DNA of 41,217 nt from Clostridiales bacterium (GTDB taxonomy: Bacteria; Bacillota; Clostridia; Oscillospirales; Oscillospiraceae). The position numbers were made by a program, and so were the translations under genes. The stretch spans positions 14,422-55,638 of the forward strand of contig JAAVHT010000040.1 of assembly GCA_014799565.1 (NCBI GenBank), written 5' to 3'. Positions 2,485 through 36,870 of the stretch are shown piece by piece. Below the pieces are notes generated by a model. That model was given only the letters and a program-made list of their open reading frames with translations, had not been told where the DNA came from and ran no database searches. Positions within the stretch are counted from its first letter, which is position 1. Every line of letters starts with the position of its first letter.

Positions 2485-4217
2485 AGGCCAATTTGAGATG
2501 GGCAAAAAACAACCTGCCCCGGGATCTGAAGATCTGGAAGGACCTGATCTCCGAGGTGGATTGGAAAGACGTGGGCAGAAACGTCAAAAACAATCTGAAA
2601 GCCACCAAGAACCGGGTCGTGGACGAAGTAAAGACCGTGGCGGCCATGTCCGGCGCGGAAAAGAAGGATCTTCTGCTCCACGGCGAGAAGCACCTGGGCC
2701 GCCTGTACCAGAAGGGGCAGATCGCCTTCACCCGCCGGGAGTGGCGGGGCGTGGAGAGCACGGCCCGGGACTTCGCCGGCTGGCTGGGCCTCTGGGGCAT
2801 CATGCTGAACATGGTGATGAAGGATCCGGTGTCCATCATGGAAGGACTGATGGAGTACCGGTGGTTCAGCTCCTATCTGGCGCTGCCCGCCTTCGTGGAT
2901 CGGAATACCCTGGGCCTGCGGGGCCCCCACGTCACCATCGCCCACCAGCTGTTCTACCCGGTGCTGCGCAACGGCGCGGATAACATCGCCACCCTGCTGA
3001 TGGCGGACGAGCGCATCGGCAACAACAAGAAGATCCAGGAAAAGCTGCTGATGTTCGACGAGATGACCATGAGCCAGATGATGGCGGGTTTCCCGGGGCT
3101 CATCGGTATGCCCTATCAGCTGATGCCCGTGTTCCTGGTCAGTGAGCTCGACCAGCTGATCTGCGTGCCCTATATCGACGCGGTGGAGAGCTTCGGCCTG
3201 CCCGCGGACACCTGCCCCGTGCCCACCAGCGAGTGCGGCGCCGCCATTCTGGACGTACTGCCCCACTGCGGCCTGGGCTTCATCTCCACCTCCACCCCCT
3301 GCGACGGGTCCACCATGGCCACCTCCTACCAGGATCGCCGGTTCAAGATGCCCACCTATCCCCTGACCCTCCCCGTGCGCTACGACGACGAGGACACCGT
3401 GGACTGCGGCGCGGAGGACATGAAGCGGTGCATCAAATGGGTGGAGAACCTCACCGGCCAGACCTGGGACTGGAACCACTATTTCTCCGTCATCCGGCGG
3501 TTCAACCAGCAGACCTGCTACGAGATGGAGAAGTGGGAGGTCAACAAGACCCCCTATCCCCAGGTCATCGGCCCCGCTTACGAGCTGTTCCGAAAGTGGA
3601 GCTACGAGATGGACGGCGGTCTGGATCCCCGGGTCATGAAGACCTTCGAAAAGGTCAACAAGACCATGCTGCGCTGCTATGAGAAGCGGATGAATCCCTA
3701 CCGGGCCCCCATCCGCCACCGGGCCATCGTGTGGAGCTGCCCCGCCCACTACTACGCCAATTTCTCCAACTGGCTGCAAAACGCCTGGGGCATCGGCGTG
3801 CTGGTGGAGATGGAGAGCCTGAACTTCACCAAGATGCTCAACACCGATGACCACGAGGAGGCCATCCGCGACCTGGCCCGGCTGTACGAGCGCATGGTCA
3901 TGCGCAAGCACACCAACGGCGGCCACGTCCACGTGCTGGAGGAGCTGTGGAAGCAGGTGGAGGAGTTCAATGCGGAAATCGTCATCATGTATCAGCACGT
4001 GTGCTGCAAGACCATGGCCGGTCTCCAGGGCCTGTTTGACGAGCAGGCCCGCCAGCGGGGCATCCACATCATCTGGGTGGAGCACGACCTGATGGATCCC
4101 CGCACCGTATCCCGCCGGGATATGCGCACCAAGGTCAACAACTATATGATCAACGTGTTCCAGGAGGAACCCCTGGATCCCTCCCTGGTGGAGTTTGAAG
4201 ACGACATCACGTGGTGA
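2478..4217 (+). CDS. Large 2-hydroxyacyl-CoA dehydratase-family subunit (HgdA-like, 579 aa)
   Basis: This second HGD-D-type subunit has an N-terminal extension of roughly 100 charged residues before the region that resembles the family. Landmarks are CPVPTSECGAAILDVLP, STPCDGSTMATSY and WDWNHYFSVIRRFNQQT, the last typical of the helical part of these subunits, plus EIVIMYQHVCCKTMAG and GIHIIWVEHDLMDPR near the C-terminus. At 579 aa it is much longer than the usual 370-480 aa partner. The ATG overlaps the end of the upstream subunit, so the two are probably made together as a heterodimer. It could instead be an atypical family branch whose substrate is not a CoA ester. Confidence 0.8.
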   Translation: MLKANLRWAKNNLPRDLKIWKDLISEVDWKDVGRNVKNNLKATKNRVVDEVKTVAAMSGAEKKDLLLHGEKHLGRLYQKGQIAFTRREWRGVESTARDFAGWLGLWGIMLNMVMKDPVSIMEGLMEYRWFSSYLALPAFVDRNTLGLRGPHVTIAHQLFYPVLRNGADNIATLLMADERIGNNKKIQEKLLMFDEMTMSQMMAGFPGLIGMPYQLMPVFLVSELDQLICVPYIDAVESFGLPADTCPVPTSECGAAILDVLPHCGLGFISTSTPCDGSTMATSYQDRRFKMPTYPLTLPVRYDDEDTVDCGAEDMKRCIKWVENLTGQTWDWNHYFSVIRRFNQQTCYEMEKWEVNKTPYPQVIGPAYELFRKWSYEMDGGLDPRVMKTFEKVNKTMLRCYEKRMNPYRAPIRHRAIVWSCPAHYYANFSNWLQNAWGIGVLVEMESLNFTKMLNTDDHEEAIRDLARLYERMVMRKHTNGGHVHVLEELWKQVEEFNAEIVIMYQHVCCKTMAGLQGLFDEQARQRGIHIIWVEHDLMDPRTVSRRDMRTKVNNYMINVFQEEPLDPSLVEFEDDITW

Positions 4218-4240
4218 CGTGAGGAAGGAGAGAGAAGCGT

Positions 4241-5038
4241 ATGAAATATTTCGGCGGCTGCGATGTGGGCTCGACCTATACCAAGTGCGTGATCCTGGAC
4301 GAAACCGGCAAGATGGTGGCGGACACCACCATCCGCAGCAAGATCAATTCGGAGGTTTCCGCCACCATGGCCCTGGAGGAGACGCTGACCAAGGCGGGGC
4401 TGAAAGAGGCCAAGGAGCTCAGCTATCTCATCGGCACCGGCTACGGCCGCAACAAGGTGCCCTTCGCCGATGAGAACATCTCCGAGATCTCCTGCCACGC
4501 TATGGGCGTCCACGTCACCGACCCCCGCGTCAAGGCCATCATCGACATCGGCGGGCAGGACGTGAAGGGCATCTCCATCGACACCGATGGAACGGTGAAG
4601 AACTTTGCCATGAACGACAAGTGCGCCGCCGGCACGGGCCGGTTCTACGAGGCCATGGCCAACGCCTTTGAGATGACCCTGCCGGAGTTCTCCAGCCTGT
4701 CCCTGTCGGCTAAGAACACCATTCCCATCACCGCCCAGTGCACTGTTTTCGCCGAGAGCGAGGTCATCACCCTGGTGGGCGAGGGCAAGCCCATGGATGA
4801 GATCGCCGCCGGCATCCAGATGGCTGTGGCAAAGCGCTGCTTCGTCATGAGCAAGAAAGCCGGGGCCACCGACAGCATTACCCTCACCGGGGGCTGCGCC
4901 AAAAACGCCGGACTGAAAAAGGCCATCGAGCACGTGCTGAAGCTGAAGGTCATCGACCTGAAGACAGATCCCCAACTGATGGGCGCGCTGGGCGCGGCGG
5001 AGTATGCCCGCCAGAAAGGCCTGGCAAAGGGGGCATAA
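4241..5038 (+). CDS. ATP-dependent activator of the dehydratase/reductase (BadF/BadG/BcrA/HgdC family)
   Basis: This 265-residue ASKHA-fold ATPase passes one electron to the dehydratase at the cost of ATP. It has the full signature: GCDVGSTYTK (phosphate 1, residues 6-15), IDIGGQD (101-107), MNDKCAAGTGRF with cluster ligand Cys128, ITAQCTVFAESEVI with Cys167, and LTGGCAKNAGL near the C-terminus. Two such cysteines from each monomer hold a single [4Fe-4S] cluster in the homodimer of HgdC. The length matches HgdC (about 260 aa). AGGAAGGAG precedes the ATG, 23 bases after the large subunit. Confidence 0.93.
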   Translation: MKYFGGCDVGSTYTKCVILDETGKMVADTTIRSKINSEVSATMALEETLTKAGLKEAKELSYLIGTGYGRNKVPFADENISEISCHAMGVHVTDPRVKAIIDIGGQDVKGISIDTDGTVKNFAMNDKCAAGTGRFYEAMANAFEMTLPEFSSLSLSAKNTIPITAQCTVFAESEVITLVGEGKPMDEIAAGIQMAVAKRCFVMSKKAGATDSITLTGGCAKNAGLKKAIEHVLKLKVIDLKTDPQLMGALGAAEYARQKGLAKGA

Positions 5039-23772: not shown

Positions 23773-23892
23773 CTGATTGCCAACCCTCAATGTGCCGCTT
23801 TCTGGCGCTTTGGGGGCCTTTTTGTTCCGGGTGGGTGTGGTCTTTGGCGCTTTCCTGTCCATTGATTCCGCCCGCTCGTTTCCCCGTGTGGG

Positions 23893-24135
23893 TCAGGAGG
23901 CAAACGCCGAGCTGACAGCAGCGAGCGGAAAGCCCATCCTGACTGCCCGCTCCCGCTCATAGGTGACCCTGGTAACTCCCTCAATGAAGCGCCGCTCTTT
24001 TCCCTCTGCGCTGGCCCATCTTACTCCATACTTCCGGCACATCTGGAAGAAGATTTCATAAAACCGCGCCTCCTCCAGGTTCCTGCGGCAATACCATTTC
24101 ACATCGGAAGCAGGGATTTCTTTTCTGATTTCCAC
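23893..24135 (-). CDS. Small basic protein of unknown function inside the island (80 aa)
   Basis: The 80-residue product reads EIRKEIPASDVKWYCRRN at its start and contains EARFYEIFFQMCRKYGVRW and RRFIEGVTRVTYERERA. It is basic, with no membrane segment or known motif. The start is taken at GTG 24135 with GGGGAGG eight bases upstream. Similar small basic proteins are often encoded near the ends of mobile elements, but I do not recognise this one. It lies just inside the tRNA scar. Confidence 0.45.
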   Translation of the reverse strand: MEIRKEIPASDVKWYCRRNLEEARFYEIFFQMCRKYGVRWASAEGKERRFIEGVTRVTYERERAVRMGFPLAAVSSAFAS

Positions 24136-24313: not shown

Positions 24314-25426
24314 TCACAGCGTTTTGCAGTAGTCAAAAATCCGCTGCAGATTGTCATAGATAAACTGCTGCGCGGTCTCGGATAAGAGGAGCTGGCCCTC
24401 CGAAACTATCAGTCCGATCTTCTCGCCTTCCTCTGTGGGGAAGCTGCTCCATTCTTTTCGTCCTTCGCCCGAATCCGCTCTAAAGACGCTGTACTTCTCC
24501 TGATAAAGCCAAACCGCAAGAAATCTCTTGGGCAATATATCCGGGTACTCCTCTTCACCTCTCAGGTTGGCATTGATGACGGTCTCCAGATAAGCCGGCT
24601 GAATCGGCTTGGAAACAGGCCGCAGCTTGCTGCGAAGCTCCTCGGTAAGCACAGGCTCTCGCGGCCCCCACCTGTAAGCCTCTCCAGAGGCAAGATCCTG
24701 AACGATGCCATCCAAATTGTCGCAAAGAAACCGCTGAGCGGGCGCGGTCCACAGAACCGAGCGGTCCCTGTTCGGGTCGCAGCGGATTCCGATTTTTTCT
24801 CCGGCCTCGGTCGGATACCGCCTTTTACTCTTTCCTATCAAAATGGTTTCCATCAGGCCGTTTTTTACCAACCACACGCCGAGCTTCGCCGCGCTCAGCA
24901 CACGAGGCAAGTCCCCGGGCAGACAGCTGTTGATCTGCTTTACCATAGCTGTGATGAGAAGCGGTTCCTCCGAAACGGGAACCCGGCTGTGCCATTTCGG
25001 GGTCAGGCAGGCCAACAGCGGCTCCCACTGCATTCGCTCCAAAGCGATAATTTGTCCTATACTGTCCCGCAAAAGCATCTGCCCCTGCTCCCCGCAAACA
25101 ATCTCGGAATAGGCTTTCCCATCTGCGGCCGTGAACTGTGCAGACCGCAGCCCAAGACCGGCACCCTTTGGAGCAGGCTGATTATTCCAACACTGCCTGC
25201 TTTCTTTGTGCTGCGCCATGAGATAGCCCTCCTGAGTCAGCCACTCAAAGGCCGCATAATTCAAAAAGTGCGGATCCGCGGTAAATCCCAGCGATGTACA
25301 CAGATCGTGCATGAAAGATTTCACCGGCACTTCCTTCGGGACGGCTTTGCTGATGTTGGGGCCCGCCCCCATCGGCAGCGGGTTCAGATGATTCTCCGTA
25401 TGGCCGGCAAACTGTGATTCGCTCAA
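24314..25426 (-). CDS. Unknown protein with three internal winged-helix-like repeats (370 aa)
   Basis: Three repeats of about 85-90 residues lie at about 38-129, 156-243 and 280-365. The shared pattern is a leucine-rich helix, a VWLVKNGLM- or FEWLTQEGYL-type helix, then a conserved P-T-E-x-G-E-K-I-G-I turn, and a final AQRFLCDNLDGIV- or AQQFIYDNLQRIF-type helix. This resembles tandem winged helices of phage-type adaptor proteins, but no family is named. The start is TTG 25426 with AGGAGGG eight bases upstream. It is divergent from the ClpP/VirD4-like operon and shares its promoter region, so it may regulate it or be part of the same system. Confidence 0.65.
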   Translation of the reverse strand: MSESQFAGHTENHLNPLPMGAGPNISKAVPKEVPVKSFMHDLCTSLGFTADPHFLNYAAFEWLTQEGYLMAQHKESRQCWNNQPAPKGAGLGLRSAQFTAADGKAYSEIVCGEQGQMLLRDSIGQIIALERMQWEPLLACLTPKWHSRVPVSEEPLLITAMVKQINSCLPGDLPRVLSAAKLGVWLVKNGLMETILIGKSKRRYPTEAGEKIGIRCDPNRDRSVLWTAPAQRFLCDNLDGIVQDLASGEAYRWGPREPVLTEELRSKLRPVSKPIQPAYLETVINANLRGEEEYPDILPKRFLAVWLYQEKYSVFRADSGEGRKEWSSFPTEEGEKIGLIVSEGQLLLSETAQQFIYDNLQRIFDYCKTL

Positions 25427-25573: not shown

Positions 25574-27034
25574 TTGAAAAGAGACATGATAGAAAAGCAG
25601 TTGGAGTTGATGGATGCACTGATGCACAGCGTCAGCCAGAAAGCGCAGATCCCGGAAGCGTTTAAGCTGTTTTATGGGGTGTTTTTGAAGGATATGGTTC
25701 ATACCACAGGGGGGCGGACCGGGCAGGATTGGGAGCCGCAGGTATACTTCTCCTATGTCCTGTGTCGGGATGACGAGGTGCTGGCCGTGGCGGCGCCCTA
25801 CACCACTTTGAAAGAAGGCTGGAAGCGGCCGCTGCCCTCAGAGAGGCTGGAAGCCCTGCAGGCAGCGGGGCTCCCTCTGTTTTCCGATTTTTATACCATG
25901 CGGAGGGGGGAAGATGGGGAACTGACAATGAGCCTGAAATCCCGGGATTGTCCGAGCCCCTCCGGTTGGCGGCTTCCCACGGTTCGCGTCCCATCGGAGT
26001 TGAGCGACCTTCTATACAAAAAGGGAATGGCCCGTTCTCCCGATCTCATTCCCACTGACTACGGGAACCAGCTTGGGCTGTGCGAAACGCACTGGTACGG
26101 GGGGGAGTTTGCCGGGCAACCGCGCCCGGATGCCGGTTTGTACTGCTCCGCCGCCGGCTGGGTAAATCGGGTGAGGCTGGGGGAGCATCCCTGGGGGGGT
26201 GGCCCGGACTGGGTGCCCCTTCCCCTGGATACCCGGCTGGAACGGATGCGGGCCGGCCGGTGGTCCGGCAGCCCCGGCCACTGTATGTCCGCTTTTCTGC
26301 GCCTGGAGGCTATGCCGGTGGCACCCCTTTTGTCGGCTCGTCTGAGCAAAAAATACATTGAGGAACACCGGTCGGAACTACAGGCGCGTTACGGCTCCGG
26401 CGTCACCTACGGGCAGACTGCGCGGAACGTGGATCGGCTGCTGCGTTCCGATTCGGAATCGGAGCGGACGGAAGGGGAGTCCCGTCTCAATGATTTGACC
26501 GTTCTCTTTTTTTGTGACCACAAGCTGCGCAACTCCAAAACCAGGCTCCAGAAGGTCAAAAAAAGCGAAGTAATCAATGAAGCCAAACCGGCTGGCCGAT
26601 CCCTTTCCGACCGTCTGGCCGGGGCGGGCATTTTGGAGAACGGCAGTTCCTACCTGCCCCTGGTGGGGGACTGTTTGGATGACGTGTTTCAAGGGCTGAG
26701 CCGCCTGATCGGCACCGGCGCTCCCGCGCAGGCGTTTTACTCAGAGACGCCGTCCTGGGTCTGGGAAGATCTGTACGGGGAATGGGACAAAAGCCTGGAT
26801 GGTCTGATTTACAGAGTGTGGGGGATGGGCGCGCCCGAAACGGTGAACTCCTCCGTCGCCGAGGCGCAAATTACGGGGATCCTCCGGCGGCTGCTGATTG
26901 AGCCGTTCTGCCTTTTGGAGGAAATACGGCGTTTGGAGGAGAAACACAGCGCGCTTCTGGAAGAAATCCGGGAGCGGAACAAAACGTTGAAAAAAGAACT
27001 GAAAGGGATGAATTTTGATGGAAATGTCGGCTGA
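25574..27034 (+). CDS. Uncharacterised 486-residue protein, first gene of the ClpP/VirD4-like operon
   Basis: No family is recognised. The protein is soluble by inspection. A charged, mixed N-terminal half is followed by VLFFCDHKLRNSKTRLQKVK at about residue 320, and the final 50 residues (LLEEIRRLEEKHSALLEEIRERNKTLKK) are a strong coiled coil. The start is TTG 25574 with AGGGAG seven bases upstream; ATG 25586 lacks one. Its last 17 bases overlap the ClpP-like gene, so the two are translationally coupled. It could be a substrate adaptor or sensor for the protease, which is only a suggestion. Confidence 0.7.
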   Translation: MKRDMIEKQLELMDALMHSVSQKAQIPEAFKLFYGVFLKDMVHTTGGRTGQDWEPQVYFSYVLCRDDEVLAVAAPYTTLKEGWKRPLPSERLEALQAAGLPLFSDFYTMRRGEDGELTMSLKSRDCPSPSGWRLPTVRVPSELSDLLYKKGMARSPDLIPTDYGNQLGLCETHWYGGEFAGQPRPDAGLYCSAAGWVNRVRLGEHPWGGGPDWVPLPLDTRLERMRAGRWSGSPGHCMSAFLRLEAMPVAPLLSARLSKKYIEEHRSELQARYGSGVTYGQTARNVDRLLRSDSESERTEGESRLNDLTVLFFCDHKLRNSKTRLQKVKKSEVINEAKPAGRSLSDRLAGAGILENGSSYLPLVGDCLDDVFQGLSRLIGTGAPAQAFYSETPSWVWEDLYGEWDKSLDGLIYRVWGMGAPETVNSSVAEAQITGILRRLLIEPFCLLEEIRRLEEKHSALLEEIRERNKTLKKELKGMNFDGNVG

Positions 27035-27605
27035 AACCCCCATGATCATTAGAGAAACCAGCCAAGGCGATTCGCGCCGCAGCATTTTGGATGAGATGCT
27101 TTTGCACCGGGAGGTGGAGTGCGTGGGAGAGATCAACGCGGACTCTGTCTACTCCCTGTGCCGCCAGCTGCGCCACCTCCAGCGGGAAGACCCTGACGGA
27201 GAGATCACCATGTATATCAACAGCCCCGGCGGCTCGGTCGCGGACGGGCTGGCGCTCTACGATGTGATGAAGGGCATTTCCTGCCCCATCCGCACCATCT
27301 GCCTGGGCACGGCGGCCAGCATGGGAGCCGTTCTGTTTGCCGCCGGGGATCAGCGGGACATCCTGCCCCACGGCAGGGTCATGATCCACGACCCCCTGAT
27401 TGGACGGACGGGGGGCAGCGCCTTACAGCTCCATGAAATCAGCCAGAGCCTGATGCAGACCCGGGAGCAGATGGGACAGCTTTTGGCCCAATTTACCGGG
27501 CGGACGCTGGAAGAGATCTACGAAAAGACCCGCCGGGACAGCTATTTCAACGCGGAGGAAGCCGTGGCCTTTGGCTTGGCCGACCGGGTAATCCAGACCA
27601 TCTGA
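27018..27605 (+). CDS. ClpP-family serine protease inside the island
   Basis: This 195-residue ClpP homologue has the complete catalytic triad: Ser101 (GTAASMGAVLF), His124 (GRVMIHDP) and Asp174 (TRRDSYF), plus the INSPGGSV strand typical of the fold. The length equals a normal ClpP subunit. No ClpX, ClpA or ClpC gene is near it, so it either borrows a host unfoldase or works with the adjacent ATPase. ATG 27018 is 17 bases before the stop of the upstream gene. A housekeeping ClpP would normally sit beside clpX, so this looks like a specialised copy. Confidence 0.88.
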   Translation: MEMSAETPMIIRETSQGDSRRSILDEMLLHREVECVGEINADSVYSLCRQLRHLQREDPDGEITMYINSPGGSVADGLALYDVMKGISCPIRTICLGTAASMGAVLFAAGDQRDILPHGRVMIHDPLIGRTGGSALQLHEISQSLMQTREQMGQLLAQFTGRTLEEIYEKTRRDSYFNAEEAVAFGLADRVIQTI

Positions 27606-27618
27606 CGGGAGGAACGCC

Positions 27619-29916
27619 ATGAAAATCGAAACAAGCCGTATTTTGGCTCAGGACTGTCTCATCCCAAACGACACCTGGGTCACCCATATCAACAACAATG
27701 ATCTGATCATTGGCCCCAGCGGCGCCGGCAAGACCCGAAACTATGTCAAGCCAAACCTGCTCCAGTGCGCGCTCCAGGGCAAGGAGAGCCTGGTGGTCGC
27801 GGACACCAAAGGCAGCCTGATTCGGGAAGTGGGCCCGGTGCTGGCCGCCCACGGCTACAAGGTCATCAATTTGGATCTGACCGACCTTCTGAACAACACG
27901 GTGGGCTATAACCCCCTGGACCACGTCCGCTATGACCCCGTGAGCAAAAAATACAACGAACAGGATATTCTGACCTTGTGCACCTGCCTGATTCCGATGG
28001 AGACTCTCCAAGATCCGTTCTGGGAGCAGTCCGCCCAGCTCTACCTGTCTGCCCTGATCGGCTACGTGCTGGAGGCCCTTCCAGAGGAGGAGCACAGCCT
28101 GATGTCTGTGTGCCGGCTCTATCAGGCCATGGACGACAAGAATTTTGTCAAGCTGTTCCAGGAACTGGAAGAGGAGAACCCCGCCAGCTTTGCCGCGAGA
28201 TCCTATCGGATGGTCTCCGGAAACGAGACTGCTGAAAAAGCCTACGCCAGCATCAAAATGTTCCTGGTCAAAAACCTTCTCCCCCTGTCCTTCGACGGCC
28301 CCATCCATCTGTACACCTTGAAGGAGCGCATCGATTTCCGTGCCCTGGGCCGGGAGCAGACAGCGGTGTTCCTCACCATCAGCGACACCGACCGCTCCAT
28401 GGACAAGATCGCCAACGTGTTTTACACCCAGGCGCTCCATGCCCTGATCGAAAGTGCCGACAAAGACTACCGCCCAAACAGCTGTCTGCCTGTGCCCGTG
28501 CGCTTTATTTTGGATGACTTTGCAACCAATGTGGTTATCCCGAATTTCGACGGCATTATCTCCATCATCCGTTCCCGTGAGGTCTATGTCAGCCTGATTA
28601 TTCAGAGCATCAACCAGTTGTACGCCCTCTACGGGGATAACAGGGGCAAAACCATCATCAACAACTGTGACAACTGCCTTTACCTGGGCGGGCAGGACAT
28701 TGATACGGCTAATTTTATCAGTGTCAAGGCAAATAAACCCAAAGATGCCATCCTTCGTATGCCCCTGGATGATGTGTGGCTGTTTACCCGGGGACAGAAA
28801 CCCCGGCAGGCACGAAAGTACAAGCTGGAGGGGCACCCCCTTTACCCGGAGCTCCCCGAAGCTGGAGGCACCCCCGTCCCGGCGGCAGTGCCGGGCGCCG
28901 CTCCCGTTTCGGCACAGATGCCGGCCGCCCCGTCCGCACCGGAGCCCGACCTCCTCCCCGGCAGCGAGATCCTGGCCGGCCCGGAATCGATCCGGCTGAC
29001 GCAGTCCCAGTTCCAGTCCCTGGAGGACCGCAAGCGCCTGCTGCTGGAGAAGGCCGAACGGGTGGAATTCCTGCTCTCCGGCCGCAGCCGGCCTGTTTTG
29101 CCGGAGATGACGGATGAGAAGGGGCTGTACTCCGAGGAAAAAACCCAGATCCTGATCAACCGGCTTCTTGAGTGCGCACGGTTCTACTATCAGGTCCGGC
29201 GGCAGGCGGAGCTAAAGACCAAGGATCAGGCCTGCCTGCGCAGCTTCTTTTACTGTGCCTTGCGCCTGTCGGCCAGCCGGCCCGCCTGGCTTTCCGAGAT
29301 CAGGGGGGCGTTTCAGGACCTGCTGACCTGCGCGCAGCGGATGTACTATCCGAACCGAATCAGCCTCTGCTATGAGGAGTTGTGTAATCCCGCGAGAAAC
29401 AACGATTTTTTCAGTTGGATGGACGAGTGCTACGAGCAGCTTACCGGCCTGTCCATTACCTCGCGGATTTCCAGCGTAGACGAGCAGCTTGCTCGGGAAG
29501 CTTATTGGGAGGACATTGCCAAGCTGAACAAAGAGTTGGGTGACCTGCTTGTCTCTGACCCCAGCGACGCGGAGAGCTATTACCCGGGGGATTGGGACGA
29601 GCTGGAGGAGCAGGAGATGGAGGAGGAACAGGAGAGAGAATGGGCCCGGGAGAACCAGCGCCGACAGGACTGGGCCAGGGATTTCCCAGAGCCCCAGCGC
29701 TTCTGCCAGCACTATCTGCTGCTGCGGGAGCTGTATTTTGACACCAGGGCACAGGACACGCTGCCCCAGACCGTGGAACAGGCTCTGGACGCCCTCCTCC
29801 AGGAGTGGTCCGACAGCTACTTCCTGGACGACGCCGTGTTCTCCTCCGCCGGCAAGCTGCTGGATGACGCCGCGGCGCAACTGGACAAGCTGCTCCCGAC
29901 GCATCCGCTGTCATAA
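27619..29916 (+). CDS. Soluble VirD4/TraG-like ATPase with novel C-terminal region
   Basis: The protein has 765 residues. It is a VirD4/TraG-type P-loop ATPase: Walker A GPSGAGKT (32-39), VVADTKGSL (59-67), Walker B RFILDD (295-300; Asp in place of the usual Glu), and the sensor run IIQSINQLYALYGD. No membrane segment precedes the Walker A, so it lacks the anchor of true coupling proteins. After a Pro/Ala linker at about 412-450, some 315 residues have no recognised domain but include a helical region and the very acidic DELEEQEMEEEQEREW. ATG 27619 has GACGGGAGGAAC upstream, 13 bases after the ClpP stop. The co-operon ClpP makes a protein-processing role possible; DNA pumping is the alternative. 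Confidence 0.82.
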   Translation: MKIETSRILAQDCLIPNDTWVTHINNNDLIIGPSGAGKTRNYVKPNLLQCALQGKESLVVADTKGSLIREVGPVLAAHGYKVINLDLTDLLNNTVGYNPLDHVRYDPVSKKYNEQDILTLCTCLIPMETLQDPFWEQSAQLYLSALIGYVLEALPEEEHSLMSVCRLYQAMDDKNFVKLFQELEEENPASFAARSYRMVSGNETAEKAYASIKMFLVKNLLPLSFDGPIHLYTLKERIDFRALGREQTAVFLTISDTDRSMDKIANVFYTQALHALIESADKDYRPNSCLPVPVRFILDDFATNVVIPNFDGIISIIRSREVYVSLIIQSINQLYALYGDNRGKTIINNCDNCLYLGGQDIDTANFISVKANKPKDAILRMPLDDVWLFTRGQKPRQARKYKLEGHPLYPELPEAGGTPVPAAVPGAAPVSAQMPAAPSAPEPDLLPGSEILAGPESIRLTQSQFQSLEDRKRLLLEKAERVEFLLSGRSRPVLPEMTDEKGLYSEEKTQILINRLLECARFYYQVRRQAELKTKDQACLRSFFYCALRLSASRPAWLSEIRGAFQDLLTCAQRMYYPNRISLCYEELCNPARNNDFFSWMDECYEQLTGLSITSRISSVDEQLAREAYWEDIAKLNKELGDLLVSDPSDAESYYPGDWDELEEQEMEEEQEREWARENQRRQDWARDFPEPQRFCQHYLLLRELYFDTRAQDTLPQTVEQALDALLQEWSDSYFLDDAVFSSAGKLLDDAAAQLDKLLPTHPLS

Positions 29917-29935
29917 GAGGAGGAAGAAAGATCAG

Positions 29936-32068
29936 ATGGAAAATGTTATTTGGGCGAAAAGTTATATAGATTCCCTGCGTAGGATGTCCCCCACCATGCA
30001 GGGCAGGGCGACTCTGGCAATGATGCAGTTTGTGGAGAGTAAAAATAAAAATTCGAAAAGCCTGCATTACGAGAAGCTCCACGGCTGCAGAGAGGATAAC
30101 ATATACTCCATACGGATTGCCGACGGATTTCGGACCATCCTCTGCTGGGTTCCTCAACTGGAGGCCTATCTATTTCTCTATGCGGATCAGCACGACTCCG
30201 CCTACGACTGGGCGCACAAAGCAGTGATCTCGCTGGACAGCGAGGTTATGACAATTCAAATGTACGAGGCCCCCGGTGCGGAGACTGCGCCGGCACCGGC
30301 GGAACAGGGCCTGTTCCCGGCTGGTCAATACTCAGACAAGTCTTTGCGGCGCCTGGGCGTTCCGGAGGATCTGCTGCCTCTGGTGCGGTCCATTCAGAAT
30401 GACGATCAGCTGTTGGAACAAATGGATGCCCTCCCCGCCGAGTTAGGGGAGCGGCTGTTCGGTTTGGCAACCGGAACTCCGCTGTCTGATATTTTGGAGG
30501 AAATCGAAGCCAATAAGGCGGCTGCCGGTGGCGACCCCATGAAAAATCCGGAGACTCTGCGCTCTTTCTTCGTTCTCCCCAGCGATCCGGACTTGCGCGA
30601 GGCTGTCTTGCAGGGCGGTCTGGAGCAGTGGCGCATCTTTCTCCACCCCACACAGCGCCGACTGGTGGAAGAGCGGTTTGACGGGCCAGCCCTGGTTTTG
30701 GGCGGCGCCGGCACGGGCAAGACCATCACCGCCCTGCACCGGGCCAAGGCCCTGGCGGCTCGCATGATTCAGGAAAAAACGGAGGGGAAAATTCTCTATA
30801 CCTTCTATACGGCCAACCTCATCTACGACATAAGCGACAAACTGCGCAGTATCTGTACCGCCGAGGAATTTAAGCGCATTGATGTCCTGAATCTTGATAA
30901 GCTGCCCCGGCTCGACACCATTTCCGGCTACGAGCAGACAAGCATTCTGTATCCCAATGATAATATCCTCAAGCGGCTGTGGGAGGATGCCATCTCGATC
31001 GGAGATCCTCAGCGCACCCGTCCCGCCGGTTTTTACCAGAGGGAGTGGGAGCGCGTCATCGCCGAGCAGGAGGCGTTTACCCTGGAGGAGTATCTCGCAG
31101 TACGCCGGGTCGGAGGCAGAAAGCCCCTGTCCTCTGCACAGCGCAGAGAAGTCTGGCGCGTCTTTGACGCCTATCAGAGCCTGATGCACGAACGCCGTAT
31201 GTTTGATTATAAAACCGCCATGTACTTGTACCGCCAGTATGTCTCTAACCAGGCGGATCCGCAGTATTGCCATATCATTGTGGATGAGGCCCAGGACTTC
31301 GATACCGGCAGCCTGCGTCTGCTGCGCACTCTGGCAGGGCCGGAGCGGAAAGACGACATCTTTCTGGTGGGCGATCCCCGCCAGCGGATCTATGACCGCC
31401 GCGCCTCCTTGTCGGCCTGCGGCATTCAGGTCCAGGGTCGGATTCGCCAGCTATGGATGAACTACCGCACCACCTATCAGTTACAAGAATCCGCTACCCG
31501 TCTGCTGGATGAGGAATCCTTTGACGATTTGAATGGCGGTATGTATCAAAACCCTCGTTATTTTTCCTGCACCTCCGGGGAGCTGCCGCAGGTGAAATTC
31601 TTTGGCAGTGAGACAGAGGAAATCCAGTGGATCTATGAAGAGTTGGAGCAACTGAAACGCAGCGGCGTACCCGCGCGGGATATTTGTCTGACTGCCTCCA
31701 GCAAAAGTCTGACAAGCAGCTATATCAAACAGCTGAACAGTATGGGTATACAAACCTATGAGCTGAAAAATAAGGCGGATGACCGGAGTTTGGAAGGGAT
31801 CCGTGTGGGTACCATGCACCGCATTAAAGGACTGGAATTCCAGTATGTATTTATTGCCGGGATGAATCGGGGCGTATTTCCATCCAAGGCCGCCATCCAA
31901 TCCGAAGAGAATTTGAAACGGGCTAAATGCCTGCTGTATGTCGCTTTGACCCGCGCGCAAAAGGGCGCGTATGTCTGCGGCTATGGAAAGACTCAGTCAG
32001 AATTTCTGGCCGAATTGAACGCCTTGATAGGGGCCATGGTGGAGAGGCAGGCCGCTGTGACACGGTAA
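29936..32068 (+). CDS. UvrD-like SF1 helicase with N-terminal RelE/ParE-like domain
   Basis: The protein has 710 residues. Residues 1-95 match the RelE/ParE toxin fold by pattern (LHYEKLHGCREDNIYSIRIA; FRTILCW; LYADQHDSAYDWA). A linker of about 150 residues contains KNPETLRSFF. The SF1 helicase follows: Walker A GGAGTGKT (256-263), DEAQD (450-454), LVGDPRQRIYD, LWMNYRTT, VGTMHRIKGLEFQYVF and LLYVALTRAQKG. ATG 29936 has AAGAGGAGG upstream; the frame is open further left within the preceding gene. UvrD-type helicases of this build occur in defence systems; a nucleic-acid-sensing role is inferred. Confidence 0.85.
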   Translation: MENVIWAKSYIDSLRRMSPTMQGRATLAMMQFVESKNKNSKSLHYEKLHGCREDNIYSIRIADGFRTILCWVPQLEAYLFLYADQHDSAYDWAHKAVISLDSEVMTIQMYEAPGAETAPAPAEQGLFPAGQYSDKSLRRLGVPEDLLPLVRSIQNDDQLLEQMDALPAELGERLFGLATGTPLSDILEEIEANKAAAGGDPMKNPETLRSFFVLPSDPDLREAVLQGGLEQWRIFLHPTQRRLVEERFDGPALVLGGAGTGKTITALHRAKALAARMIQEKTEGKILYTFYTANLIYDISDKLRSICTAEEFKRIDVLNLDKLPRLDTISGYEQTSILYPNDNILKRLWEDAISIGDPQRTRPAGFYQREWERVIAEQEAFTLEEYLAVRRVGGRKPLSSAQRREVWRVFDAYQSLMHERRMFDYKTAMYLYRQYVSNQADPQYCHIIVDEAQDFDTGSLRLLRTLAGPERKDDIFLVGDPRQRIYDRRASLSACGIQVQGRIRQLWMNYRTTYQLQESATRLLDEESFDDLNGGMYQNPRYFSCTSGELPQVKFFGSETEEIQWIYEELEQLKRSGVPARDICLTASSKSLTSSYIKQLNSMGIQTYELKNKADDRSLEGIRVGTMHRIKGLEFQYVFIAGMNRGVFPSKAAIQSEENLKRAKCLLYVALTRAQKGAYVCGYGKTQSEFLAELNALIGAMVERQAAVTR

Positions 32069-32594: not shown

Positions 32595-34184
32595 ATGATG
32601 GAGATGGCAAAGACCTGGAGAGATATACCAATTGAGAACATCGGACCGATGCTGCTTGGCTGCAGAGAGCAGCAGAGTTGGAAGAAATGGTGGGGAAATT
32701 TACCTTTATACCCCACGTATAGCCTGCCGGGAGCACGTGCGTTGATGGTTTATTGTGTGGCAGTATGTGTAGCGGCCGGTGAACAGGATAATAGTAACCA
32801 CTTGGGTTGGATGAATGCCGATTATGATGAGATTTTCAAGGATGACGCGCACCCCTCTTACAACTGCAACACGTACTTACAATTTATTGGACCCGAAGAA
32901 TCCACCACCCGCGCTTATGATTGCCGTGACCAGATCGTAAATTTTATCGGGGAATTGCGGGATCGAAAAATTGTGACACTGGGACAGCTGATGGAGTGGC
33001 TGATGGATAAAAACGGTTCTTTGCAAGGCCAGCAGCAGGATTTGAGTCCCGCAAAAGAACAACTGGTAAACAGTCTGAACAACGGCGATTTTTATCAAAT
33101 TTGGTATAGGTGGCAGCTCCGCAAAAAAATTAAAGCCATCTCTGTTGGCGAGGAGGCCCTGGATCATCTGGAACATGGCGCCAAGCAGATCATCTTCAAT
33201 GGCGCGCCCGGCACAGGCAAGTCCCATGTATCCGAGCTGCTGGCCCGGTACCTTGGCGCAATACTGCCCGGAGAGGCCAATCCCTACGTCCGTGTCCAGT
33301 TTCACCCGTCCTATGATTACACGGACTTTGTGGAGGGCCTGCGGCCTGTTCAGATAAATGGCGAAAGCAAGTTTGTCAAGCTGGACGGCCACTTCAAGGC
33401 ATTTTGCCGTCAAGCAGCGGAACAAAACAGGGCAGAAAAGAAGAAAATAGGCGAAGATGCAGAGAAAGAGGAAAAATATCGCAAGTATCTCGATGACAAC
33501 AAGTATTTCTTCCTGATTGACGAGATCAACCGGGCCGACCTGTCCAAGGTATTCGGCGAGCTGATGTACTGTCTGGAGGCGGACAAGCGGGGACCGAAAC
33601 ATACCGTCAAGACACAGTATCAAAATTTGTCTACCTATGGTTTTAACGCTCCGGACGGGTCTAAAGAGCCCCAAAAGCCTAAGATTGCAGCCCCAATCAC
33701 TGATGATGTATTTGAGGATGGTTTCTACATCCCCGAAAACGTCTACATTCTCGGCACGATGAACGATATCGACCGCTCGGTGGAGAGTATGGACTTCGCC
33801 CTGCGGCGGCGCTTTGAGTTTATGGAGCTTAAAGTAGATGGGCGCTCGTTGCAGCGGGCATTTGAGACGATGGGATTGGGAGAAATCGCAGAGGATCTGG
33901 CCAAAAGTGTGAACGCGTTAAATGAAACGATCGAGGAAGACGGGGAAAAATATGGTTTGAACCGGGACTATTTTATCTCCCAGGGACAATTTGCCCACCT
34001 GCCTTCCGAACTTCCTAAGCGCGATGACGAGAAGACGGAGTTAGTTGGAGATCTGGCAAAAATTAAATACTATGTTTGGAAATACCGCATCGAACCGCTG
34101 CTGCGGGAGTACCTGCGGGGTGAGAGTGGTGTCGACGATTTTGTTGGAACCTGCAAAGAAAAATTTTTCTCTCCAGAGGGTTAA
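32595..34184 (+). CDS. mcrB: McrB-type GTPase of a modification-dependent restriction system
   Basis: The protein has 529 residues. The first 190 residues are a specificity region of unknown fold. The AAA+ domain then shows Walker A GAPGTGKS (203-210), Walker B LIDEINRADL (307-316) and the McrB-specific MNDIDRSVESMDFALRRRF (389-407). McrB uses GTP to drive DNA translocation and activates the McrC nuclease when modified DNA is bound. GGAGGGG precedes a tandem ATGATG, so 32595 or 32598 may be used. The mcrC gene starts 15 bases after its stop. Its own promoter allows expression independent of the helicase operon. Confidence 0.92.
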   Translation: MMEMAKTWRDIPIENIGPMLLGCREQQSWKKWWGNLPLYPTYSLPGARALMVYCVAVCVAAGEQDNSNHLGWMNADYDEIFKDDAHPSYNCNTYLQFIGPEESTTRAYDCRDQIVNFIGELRDRKIVTLGQLMEWLMDKNGSLQGQQQDLSPAKEQLVNSLNNGDFYQIWYRWQLRKKIKAISVGEEALDHLEHGAKQIIFNGAPGTGKSHVSELLARYLGAILPGEANPYVRVQFHPSYDYTDFVEGLRPVQINGESKFVKLDGHFKAFCRQAAEQNRAEKKKIGEDAEKEEKYRKYLDDNKYFFLIDEINRADLSKVFGELMYCLEADKRGPKHTVKTQYQNLSTYGFNAPDGSKEPQKPKIAAPITDDVFEDGFYIPENVYILGTMNDIDRSVESMDFALRRRFEFMELKVDGRSLQRAFETMGLGEIAEDLAKSVNALNETIEEDGEKYGLNRDYFISQGQFAHLPSELPKRDDEKTELVGDLAKIKYYVWKYRIEPLLREYLRGESGVDDFVGTCKEKFFSPEG

Positions 34185-34199
34185 ACGGGGTGATGCTCA

Positions 34200-35876
34200 A
34201 TGAGTCCCATTCTGAAGGACAATACTTTGGTCTCTGAAACTGTTGTAGAAACAAAATTCAGGGAACTAGAGAATCTGGACGACTCAAAGAGATTAGAGAA
34301 GTTTAAGGAGCTGAAAGTCTCAAAGGGACTGGAGGAATTTAACAGCTTAAAGAGATTAAAAAAGCAAATAGAGAAAGCCCAGCAATTAAAAAAGTTCACG
34401 GAAGTCAAGAAATTTGAGGCAGAATTTAAGAATGCTTCAAAAGATTTTTTCAAGGAATATTTAGAAGAATTTGAGGAGCGCTGCCGCGCCATACAAGGCT
34501 TGGCCGATGAAGGCCGGTGCAGCCTGATTGATCTGCTGAATAAAACAGAAAGAGATGACCGGGAACGTCCCCAAATATTCAAATATGGCGCCGACGGGAA
34601 ACTGTGCACCGAAAACCTGATCGGCGTGTTTGAGTACAGGACAGAGGCCGGCATAGAAACCGTCATCATCGGCGACCGTTTCGGCCCAAAAAAGGTGGCA
34701 AACGACGGCGTTGAGGGTGAGTTCCTGTCTTTCTTTGCCTGGGCCATGCTGGAGAAGTGCTGGGACGACACCCCACTGTGGATCCTGAAAGAGTCCAGGA
34801 TTAGCGGAGAAACCAATATTTTTGACCGGATTCTGCTGCTCAAGCTGGCGGTTCAGATGGAACAGGCATGGAAAAAAGGGCGGTTTCGGATCTACCGCGC
34901 CTTTTCCTGCTATGACAGCCGAATCCGGGGACAGCTCGACCTGCCCCGGAAGATTCGGATGAGCATGGGCCTGGATGACGGCAAGATGGCCTACCGGGTT
35001 CGGGAGTATAGTGAAGACAATATTTACAACCATCTGTTTTTCCAGGCTTGTCTGGAGGCGGAAAAGCGGCATCCGGAGTGGATGCGGCGTCTGAGGCAGA
35101 GAATACCTGGCTTCCGCCTGGCCCGCCAGGCGTTGGAGCGGCAGAACGCCGGCTGGAGCCGCGGCGATACCCGCTCTTTGCTCGACGGCACAAAGAAAAA
35201 AATCACAAATCCCGTCTATCGGGACTATGAGACGCTGCGGGTCGTTGCCCGGGCAGTCCTGAAGCGGACAAGCCACAGGAGTTATCCCTATGCGGAGAAC
35301 GGCGCATCCTTCGTGACCGGTGTTTTCCTGGACGTCAGCAAGCTGTGGGAGGACTATCTATACAAGGCGGTCATCCATAACTCCTCCTGCCTGGCCCAAA
35401 ATAACGCGGACATCCTGGGCGGGATGCTGAATGTCAGGCCAGACTTCTGGTGGGAAAACAAAAGGCGGGTCCTGGACGCCAAGTACCGTCCGGTCTGGGG
35501 CAGGATCCTGGAAAAAGCTCAGAAGAAAGAGCAGGCCAGTGAGCAAGACCGCAAAAGAATCCGGGACGACGTATATCAGGTCCTCACCTATATGCTGACC
35601 TTGGACTGCACCCACGGGGGCGTAATCTTCCCGGTAAAGCGCAAACGCCCGACGGCGGAACCCTCGGCCGACAAAAAGAACTTCCAGCATAAGGGATTCC
35701 GGGCAGTCAGAAAGGGATCTCCGTCGGTCAGCGGGAATCCAAACCAAAGCTTTGGACTGATCCCTTTCTTCGTTCCCCAGGATGAAAAAATGACCTATAG
35801 AGAATTTTTCAAGGCGATGGAGCTCGAGGCCAATAAGACACATGAAGAGCTGGAAGCATTTTTCGGGACAAATTAA
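34200..35876 (+). CDS. mcrC: McrC-family nuclease with unusual coiled-coil N-terminus
   Basis: The protein has 558 residues. Residues 15-100 are a Lys/Glu-rich coiled coil (LKKQIEKAQQLKKFTEVKKF) with clearly lower GC than the rest. The C-terminal nuclease has the PD-(D/E)xK pattern: Asp415 in VRPDFWW, then Asp426 and Lys428 in LDAKYRPVW. McrC normally starts with a beta-rich domain; that part here is extended by about 100 residues. ATG 34200 has GGGGTGATG upstream. With McrB it should cut DNA that carries a specific base modification; the target is unknown. Confidence 0.9.
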   Translation: MSPILKDNTLVSETVVETKFRELENLDDSKRLEKFKELKVSKGLEEFNSLKRLKKQIEKAQQLKKFTEVKKFEAEFKNASKDFFKEYLEEFEERCRAIQGLADEGRCSLIDLLNKTERDDRERPQIFKYGADGKLCTENLIGVFEYRTEAGIETVIIGDRFGPKKVANDGVEGEFLSFFAWAMLEKCWDDTPLWILKESRISGETNIFDRILLLKLAVQMEQAWKKGRFRIYRAFSCYDSRIRGQLDLPRKIRMSMGLDDGKMAYRVREYSEDNIYNHLFFQACLEAEKRHPEWMRRLRQRIPGFRLARQALERQNAGWSRGDTRSLLDGTKKKITNPVYRDYETLRVVARAVLKRTSHRSYPYAENGASFVTGVFLDVSKLWEDYLYKAVIHNSSCLAQNNADILGGMLNVRPDFWWENKRRVLDAKYRPVWGRILEKAQKKEQASEQDRKRIRDDVYQVLTYMLTLDCTHGGVIFPVKRKRPTAEPSADKKNFQHKGFRAVRKGSPSVSGNPNQSFGLIPFFVPQDEKMTYREFFKAMELEANKTHEELEAFFGTN

Positions 35877-36291: not shown

Positions 36292-36870
36292 ATGGCTTTC
36301 ATGGCTAAGAAACGTGCCAACGGCAAAGGAAATATTCGCAAACGAAAGGACGGCCGTTGGGAAGGCCGCTATACCGCCGGCTATAACCCAGATACCGGCA
36401 AGCGCATCATCAAAAATGTCTTGGGCAAAACCCAGGCTGAAGTCAAACAGAAGCTGGCCGCCGCCCAGCAGGAATCCGAAGTGCTGGACGTCAGCCGCAC
36501 TGAGGAATACACAGTGGCCACTTGGCTGAAAAGCTGGTATGAACTCTACGCCAAACCCAATGTCTGACTGGCCACGGCAGACCGATACCGCCTGATGATT
36601 GAACCCTACACCATCCCCCGCATTGGGAAGATCAAGCTGAAAAAGCCGACCTCCCGTGATTTGCAAAAGCTCTGCAAGGATCTGATGGAGCATGGCCGTG
36701 TCAACCAGCGAAGCGGCCACGGCACCCCCCGGTCTCAGCAGCACCACGGTGCGCAGTGTCCACCTCATGCTCCACAGCGCATTTGAACGGGCAGGAAGGT
36801 CAAACTTCCTGCCAATGCTCTTTAACCCTTTCCGCACATTTCGCCGTGTGGGTCGCGGTGTGGGTCAAGT
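36292..36870 (+). pseudogene. Tyrosine integrase pseudogene (N-terminal part)
   Basis: ATG 36292 begins MAFMAKKRANGKG and continues RKRKDGRWEGRYTAGYN, the AP2-type arm-binding N-terminus of Tn916-like integrases. A TGA stop at 36565-36567 interrupts the reading frame, after which the same frame continues into an SAM-like segment (IKLKKPTSRDLQKLCKDL). A second frame carries GLSSTTVRSVHLMLHSAFERA. The catalytic domain with the R-H-R-Y residues is missing. It is therefore dead. AAAGGAG precedes the start. Confidence 0.85.

Follow-up and report, generated by a model that had tools for sequence, protein, structure and literature searches.

The window, a stretch of 41,217 nucleotides from a Clostridiales bacterium, carries a three-part module consisting of a distinct type of ClpP, a VirD4-like ATPase that is soluble and lacks a membrane anchor, and a member of an adaptor-like protein family. 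We propose that the module encodes an ATP-dependent protease driven by a T4CP-type motor in place of an AAA+ unfoldase, a prediction from sequence to which we assign a probability slightly above one half (roughly 55%). The module is widespread and conserved in gut bacteria of the Bacillota and Actinomycetota, and its carriers include the isolated species Scatolibacter rhodanostii (L059) and Blautia luti (L099).

The operon and its conserved core

The operon has four genes on the forward strand, located where an earlier inspection of the DNA (hereafter the sequence-only reading) had placed them: the adaptor-like protein P0001 (25574..27034, 486 aa with the TTG start as listed; matched by an HMM of its own family), the ClpP-type serine peptidase P0002 (27018..27605; PF00574, CLP_protease, E 6.5e-51), the soluble VirD4/T4CP-like ATPase P0003 (27619..29916; Pfam T4SS-DNA_transf, E 7.4e-37), and the SF1 (UvrD-like) helicase P0004 with an N-terminal region of ~110 aa (29936..32068; UvrD_C, E 5e-24). 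The first two genes overlap by 17 bases, and gaps of 13 and 19 bases follow. Neighbouring genes on the same strand encode a McrB-like AAA protein of the type IV restriction kind (32595..34184; AAA_5, E 5.6e-15) and McrC (34200..35876; PF10117, E 4e-22). On the minus strand lies a divergent gene with no Pfam match (24314..25426), which is 44-45% identical, in two pieces, to positions 4069-4979 of locus L047, where this relative also adjoins the module.

We identified 92 module loci, which reduce to 79 non-redundant ones at 97% ATPase identity and to 65 after removal of 14 with less than 1.5 kb on either side (or a fragment). A ClpP gene lies within 3 kb of the ATPase gene and on the same strand at 58 of these 65 well-flanked loci (counting L047, whose ClpP copy is incomplete), and the linkage occurs in both gene orders. 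The adaptor lies within the same distance at 57 of the 65, and ClpP and adaptor are found together on the same strand at 52. None of 20 conjugative VirD4 loci had a ClpP or adaptor nearby, and a conjugative-type VirD4 was also present at only 1 of 80 module loci. These contrasts bear out the proposal that the genes are non-conjugative, coupled and probably protein-degrading, and leave a conjugation element unsupported as an identity for the operon. Of 48 carrier genomes, 30 have a relaxase of family PF03432 somewhere in the genome, and a search for it in the other 18 found none.

Co-occurrence of all four genes, as the sequence-only reading would have it, extends beyond chance to ClpP, ATPase and adaptor and stops short of the helicase, relatives of which were found at 2 of the 92 loci (the window and L047). 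We therefore reject the four-gene operon as a single system, since neither this helicase nor McrBC travels with the core.

The ATPase is an anchorless relative of conjugative coupling proteins

P0003 scores 282 bits against the NCBIfam model 'VirD4-like, CD1115 family' (cut-off 250), and its motor core (residues 2-414, window 27622-28860) is of the RecA type with a coupling-protein fold. Coupling proteins of the CD1115 family belong to Tn916/Tn1549-type elements. The module ATPase shares with these VirD4/TraG proteins the fold and the Walker A motif, but it has no anchor, carries D-D rather than D-E in Walker B, and is tied to ClpP and the adaptor, with 79 of 80 module loci having no conjugative VirD4.

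The Walker A sequence GPSGAGKT (residues 32-39, 27712..27735), whose key residues are common to conjugative VirD4s, begins at residue 32 in P0003 versus residues 116-165 in 20 conjugative relatives, in agreement with the suggestion that the anchor is missing; in most other soluble relatives it lies near residues 30-43. Soluble N-termini had been trimmed to a methionine near the start of the profile, and open-frame lengths were used as a check. The open frame of P0003 is only 9 codons longer than listed (774 versus 765), and the longest open frame measures 395-525 aa in 74 of 79 soluble ATPases, so that an N-terminal anchor region does not fit. The highest 19-residue hydropathy mean did not exceed 1.77 along the full length of the soluble proteins and was 1.63-2.88 in the conjugative N-termini, a slight overlap that makes this measure not decisive alone.

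The acidic pair of Walker B is D299-D300 (28513..28518), with Asp replacing the Glu of conjugative VirD4s. This substitution at the second position, already noted in the sequence-only reading, was present in 67 of 67 aligned soluble ATPases (L045, on a very long branch, was excluded), versus Glu in 20 of 20 conjugative proteins. A text pattern gave D in 77 of 79, I in one and a fragment in one; we relied on the alignment count instead. The Walker A and arginine positions are conserved in the module ATPases. Past the ATPase core P0003 continues for ~350 residues (about 315 in the sequence-only reading), and relatives of this part occur as separate ORFs. The helical extension itself (residues ~460-759, 28996..29895), modelled as low-confidence helices, is 33% identical over 320 aa to the stand-alone ORF L036_10178_11173; separate-ORF relatives are found in L036 and L052, and an ORF of L117 falls in the same cluster.

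The module ClpP has kept its catalytic residues and changed its docking pocket

Trees and pocket counts were based on 68 non-redundant, full-length ATPase-ClpP pairs, drawn from the 70 loci with ClpP by leaving out the incomplete L047 and L074; loci without ClpP fall outside these analyses. The catalytic triad is retained, with Ser in 68/68, His in 68/68 and Asp in 64/68. Module ClpPs form their own branch, separate from housekeeping ClpP (represented by the 17 of 19 canonical ClpPs retained by their MIHQP motif, a set that does not include the window genome's housekeeping copy), and ATPase and ClpP diverge in parallel over the 68 pairs. In the pocket where the I/LGF loops of AAA+ partners dock, the Tyr and Leu positions are kept, and the other two, hydrophobic positions of the F87 and F117 type, have become A/G/S (57/68) and D/E (53/68).

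The module resembles ClpXP and ClpCP in having a ClpP peptidase with a Ser-His-Asp triad, a ring-type ATPase encoded alongside and an adaptor-like third protein. It differs in that its motor is T4CP-type rather than AAA+, and in that most of its ClpPs, which branch on their own, have the two hydrophobic residues of the IGF-loop pocket replaced. The ClpP had been described as having no unfoldase partner nearby. This is right insofar as no Clp/Hsp100 ATPase was found among the 10 window proteins scanned, but the VirD4-like motor is likely to be its partner. The cell's own ClpX or ClpC may also serve it.

These data also bear on whether the pair is simply debris of conjugation, an anchorless VirD4 that came to lie beside a stray ClpP with no joint function. 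Placement of the ATPase in the CD1115 VirD4 family by profile and the internal losses in the L047 copies of ClpP and ATPase would suit such decay. However, the catalytic residues are kept over 68 pairs, the Walker B signature is clade-wide, and ClpP and ATPase stay linked at 58 of 65 loci, whichever gene comes first. The adaptor accompanies the pair as a further conserved family. We regard a decayed remnant as highly improbable.

P0001 belongs to an adaptor-like family

P0001 had no match in Pfam, NCBIfam, PADLOC or PHROGs, and its first link to the family was a weak pairwise match (E 8.9e-6), single-sequence searches with it finding nothing else. It is nevertheless not an orphan: a profile built from the small neighbouring proteins of relatives ties it firmly to a family. 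This adaptor HMM, trained without the window, L047 and L048, matched P0001 at iE 1.2e-7 and had no match at E<1 among 14,250 decoys. The adaptor domain spans residues 215-455 (window 26216-26938) and has two halves, 'PLxxRL...TYGxA' and 'SLxxRL...LLIEPF'; residues 1-214 form a separate region before it. Many relatives have two small adaptor-like genes instead of one gene of the P0001 type. A fold search with the P0001 model (mean pLDDT 61) returned nothing at E <= 0.001, and a profile of alignment A5 against PDB sequences gave a best E of 0.13.

The gene had been described as encoding a coiled-coil protein. That label suits no more than one long helix at the protein's end (residues 443-478 in the low-confidence model). 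P0001 instead represents a new, adaptor-like family, which makes up the third component of the module's core.

Neighbouring helicases and defence genes

Neither the UvrD helicase nor McrBC is part of the core; both were added locally. A relative 39-41% identical to P0004 was found without the module, and the RelE-like N-terminus once ascribed to this helicase found no Pfam match and no relevant PDB sequence match. GajB models match P0004 (best E 4.8e-33), but the 10 scanned window proteins include no OLD-type nuclease GajA to go with it, and we rejected Gabija; a mad8 match (E 5.7e-4) was too weak to indicate MADS. McrB- and McrC-like genes follow the window operon and adjoin the L047 module, a likeness to type IV restriction that concerns a neighbour only. 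When the window sequences were used in tblastn against 80 loci, the McrBC pair was found in L047 only, and McrC alone in L082. Defence genes adjoin some loci (Cas10/Cas6 in L101, McrBC in the window; raw occurrences), and a kinase/PP2C is among the varied extra parts at module loci.

Of 282 eligible neighbour proteins within 5 kb, 133 were scanned, taken nearest first, with up to three from each sequence cluster and an upper length of 1,200 aa. Sampling three per cluster hides recurrent neighbours, and clusters were therefore recounted in full. The most frequent non-core cluster is helicase-like (14/65 loci), followed by functionally unassigned clusters at 11/65 and 10/65, all raw counts. Ten members of the helicase cluster were scanned: seven have DnaB_C, two DEAD/Helicase_C, and one had no match.

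A proposed conjugation-type motor for ClpP

In the proposed mechanism the ATPase would form a ring like those of TrwB and Cag-beta, as its fold suggests, and draw chosen proteins through its channel to feed the ClpP ring, which could dock at the face of the motor where the membrane sits in the conjugation machine. Adaptor-like proteins (P0001, or the two small genes of many relatives) may select or hand over substrates, and the varied extra parts, such as the helicase or kinase/PP2C, may provide a trigger.

Rings such as TrwB and HerA pump or sense DNA. The VirD4-like ring might likewise do so here, with foreign DNA opening or switching on the ClpP ring, whose proteolysis would be toxic or regulatory, and no protein being threaded. 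The recurrence of helicases near the loci slightly strengthens this DNA-sensing switch and slightly weakens both the protease reading and the new class proposed below. However, the neighbouring helicases are of several types, are missing at most loci and are often on the opposite strand, and an adaptor-like family at 57 of 65 well-flanked loci fits substrate choice better; we consider such a switch unlikely.

Other ring ATPases invite comparison. As in HerA-effector systems (SIR2-HerA, DUF4297-HerA), an FtsK-HerA superfamily ring ATPase is encoded with an effector, perhaps a swapped one, but the module ATPase is not of the HerA family. In L093 a DHH phosphoesterase takes the place of ClpP, and ClpP may thus be replaceable by another effector. 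DndH is part of the Dnd DNA-degradation system; its C-domain gave a lower Z than coupling proteins did, and no Dnd genes were among the scanned window proteins.

Mobility and role

The distribution of the module is patchy, and it has been recently mobile in places. A module-bearing stretch of L063 is 95.7-98.6% identical over 5.6-12.2 kb to four contigs of other assemblies, one from IMG/VR. Among viral contigs, a search with alignment A3 found one relative of P0003, and a search with the single P0003 sequence found none. At the right edge of the window island, a short ORF (36292..36567, +) resembles, by eye, the N-terminus of a tyrosine recombinase, and is probably a recombinase remnant. An imperfect 23-nt direct repeat (20/23; 23872..23894, left, + strand, and 36832-36854) marks candidate island ends, although it is short and could be due to chance. 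In the 4 nearest relatives examined (L187-L190), the gene that comes after a PtsI-like gene differs, which points to a variable site rather than a clean empty one.

The most likely role of the protease, a putative one, is to defend either the cell or the mobile island from other genetic elements. It could instead serve its carrier element, degrading host or rival proteins so that the element establishes itself, replicates or is regulated; this concerns role only and is compatible with the protease mechanism. The near-identical copies of the L063 stretch, RepL, SSB, DnaB-like and Toprim genes near some loci, and recombinase-like genes or remnants (by eye) adjoining the window island and L047 speak for such an accessory. 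Yet some loci lie amid chromosomal genes (ribosomal protein S2, thymidylate synthase and a tRNA synthetase, one each), no mobile-element gene family is constant across loci, and conjugative VirD4 is confined to 1 of 80. On balance this role seems rather doubtful.

We found no account of a VirD4-like ATPase with ClpP in the portions available of the open-licence PMC literature (which leaves preprints aside), nor the pairing by term in those of PMC5512222, PMC7159879, PMC10853773, PMC7824862, PMC12839542 and PMC12419801. As far as the excerpts of published accounts go, ClpP is driven by AAA+ ATPases, and one paper mentions a phage ClpP that may be directed against the host, without VirD4 (PMC7824862). 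Tentatively, the module would represent a new class of energy-dependent protease, made of ClpP, a soluble motor derived from conjugation coupling and its own adaptors, that is mobile, probably defensive, has an exchangeable effector and resides in gut Bacillota and Actinomycetota. It would bring with it a substrate-adaptor family without convincing match in the profile libraries searched, and, if the protease reading is true, a proteolytic type would join the systems that pair a ring ATPase with an effector. In conjugative type IV secretion, the unfoldase and the protein translocase are treated as open questions by PMC6362355. A ClpP working with a conjugation-type motor would mean that, in solution, coupling proteins can do the work of unfoldases, and this soluble, operon-linked version would allow those questions to be tested outside the membrane machine.

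ClpP and a soluble VirD4-like ATPase form the core of a widespread module

The sequence-only reading had placed the genes of the window operon correctly, with a 17-base overlap followed by gaps of 13 and 19 bases, and downstream of P0001 they encode ClpP (P0002), a VirD4-like ATPase (P0003) and an SF1 helicase (P0004). Its four-gene system gave way to a module that consists of three widespread core families, ClpP, the ATPase and an adaptor-like family that includes P0001; ClpP, described there as having no unfoldase partner nearby, likely has one in the linked motor. We found no description of such a module in the open literature searched, a scope outside which preprints and most subscription journals fell.

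We examined 65 of 79 ATPases (non-redundant at 97% identity) that had at least 1.5 kb on either side. A same-strand ClpP gene lay within 3 kb of the ATPase gene in 58 of these well-flanked loci (52 upstream, 6 downstream) and none lay within that distance in 7. That the link is kept despite changed gene order argues for joint function. Neither ClpP nor the adaptor was found in 20 control loci with conjugative VirD4, whose flanks mostly spanned about 8 kb and were shorter where a contig ended, which agrees with the earlier view that the operon does not serve conjugation. The catalytic Ser and His were present in all 68 full-length ATPase-paired ClpPs and Asp in 64 (Glu in three, Asn in one); two incomplete ClpPs were left out, that of L047, from which the Ser stretch is missing, and that of L074. 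One branch separated module ClpPs from 17 housekeeping ClpPs (support 100, quick method). ATPase and ClpP distances were correlated (r = 0.725, reached in none of 2000 permutations), which, being partly due to shared host history, is supporting evidence rather than proof.

I/LGF loops of AAA+ unfoldases are described as docking into hydrophobic ClpP pockets (PMC7112952, PMC8745299), whose residues in Neisseria meningitidis ClpP are reported to include Y67, F87, L119 and F117 (PMC6853987). Among 68 module ClpPs the Tyr pocket position was mostly kept (Y in 52, F in 11, L in 4, H in 1), as was the Leu position (63). Positions were equated by motif, with a presumed numbering correspondence. The F87-type position was A, G or S in 57 of 68 module ClpPs versus Y or F in all 17 canonical ones, and the F117-type position was D or E in 53 versus L, I or F in all 17; the window ClpP has Gly and Asp there. 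The altered pocket suggests a different partner, most obviously the linked ATPase.

An adaptor-like family accompanies most ClpP-ATPase pairs

Proteins of roughly 100-600 residues with common ‘SLxxRL’ and ‘LLIEPF’-like motifs adjoin most of the pairs. Starting from a single family, an iterated profile detected such proteins in 79 of 92 loci. The adaptor was present in 57 of the 65 well-flanked loci, in 52 of them together with ClpP; two (L098, L104) lacked both. P0001 had no match in Pfam, NCBIfam, PADLOC or PHROGs and was recovered (iE 1.2e-7) by a profile whose training set excluded the window, L047 and L048, while 14,250 shuffled or reversed decoys gave no adaptor-profile match at E < 1. 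It carries two half-domains in one chain, where many loci have two small genes instead. A Pfam scan of 30 members gave no convincing match (best E 0.0014, one member). We infer an adaptor function, and named the family adaptor-like because its genes keep the same location while its additional regions vary.

An accessory module that has moved recently in places

In the window genome (2.5 Mb, 92 contigs, 78% complete), McrB- and McrC-like genes follow the operon, and the 13-kb island lies between a gene that on visual inspection is PtsI-like and one for a family 3 glycoside hydrolase; in the four nearest relatives examined, other genes follow the PtsI-like gene. At the right end of the island is a recombinase-like remnant (36292-36567), and an imperfect 23-nt direct repeat (20/23; 23872-23894 and 36832-36854) flanks the island. 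L063 shares a module-bearing stretch (95.7-98.6% identity over 5.6-12.2 kb) with four contigs of other assemblies (L064, L066, L073 and L126), one of them from IMG/VR, a degree of sequence identity that points to recent transfer. The genomic setting indicates an accessory module that in places has moved recently. Its neighbours are diverse (129 Pfam families in 133 proteins scanned, at most three per sequence cluster) and include Cas10 and Cas6 in L101.

A metagenome contig (L047, 1994-10004) encodes a relative of each of the seven island proteins, but McrBC lies on the other flank. ClpP and ATPase of this contig have both lost internal segments, the one missing from ClpP including the catalytic Ser, and the ATPase reads in frame into the helicase; either assembly fault or decay would account for these lesions. 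Another genome of the family carries a near-full-length P0004 relative (L199:7721-9787, 39-41% identity), with no match to other island proteins within 18 kb around it.

Variants and a proposed mechanism

Relatives of the P0003 C-terminal region are separate genes in L036/L052 and L117, and in L036 another SF1 helicase comes next. The ClpP-ATPase pair is joined to PP2C and kinase-like proteins in L043, L044 and L109. In L109 (8629-19566) ClpP, adaptor and ATPase precede PP2C and a 1310-residue kinase-like protein; the set is similar in L043 and L044, and L044 adds RyR-TPR as well as a weak Card1-like match. In L093 (9983-12937) the motor is fused to a DHH/DHHA1 phosphoesterase and the locus has no ClpP, an apparent effector swap. 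Three Bifidobacterium loci (L106, L108, L112) have the ATPase and an adaptor with more than one motif copy, without linked ClpP, and might use the cell's own. No ClpP was seen in L048, whose contig starts only 770 bases upstream of the ATPase.

Helicase-like genes lay within 5 kb of the module in 14 of 65 loci; of ten scanned, seven had DnaB_C and two DEAD/Helicase_C. DnaB_C-type proteins, a possible optional fourth partner, occur near the module in L037, L038, L039, L041, L051, L053-L056, L060, L072, L079, L094, L110 and L125, either paired with a partner of about 300 residues without a Pfam match or as a single longer protein. The ClpP-less loci, the L093 fusion and the nearby helicases show that the motor is not tied to ClpP alone. 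Variants without ClpP and helicase-like neighbours also leave room for a switch in which the VirD4-like ring senses or pumps DNA and then turns on ClpP with no threading of protein, a reading we consider rather unlikely.

Most simply, by analogy, the soluble VirD4-like ring adjoining ClpP would be a protease motor, since the VirD4 homologue Cag-beta has been proposed to unfold CagA and thread it through its ring in a p97-like manner (PMC9886983) and a protein substrate of a conjugative type IV secretion system is reported to have to unfold (PMC5826034). The Walker B change in the soluble ATPase may mean slow or gated ATP use. Adaptor-like proteins would choose the substrates, with the trigger coming from the kinase or helicase additions, and a putative antiphage function is plausible.
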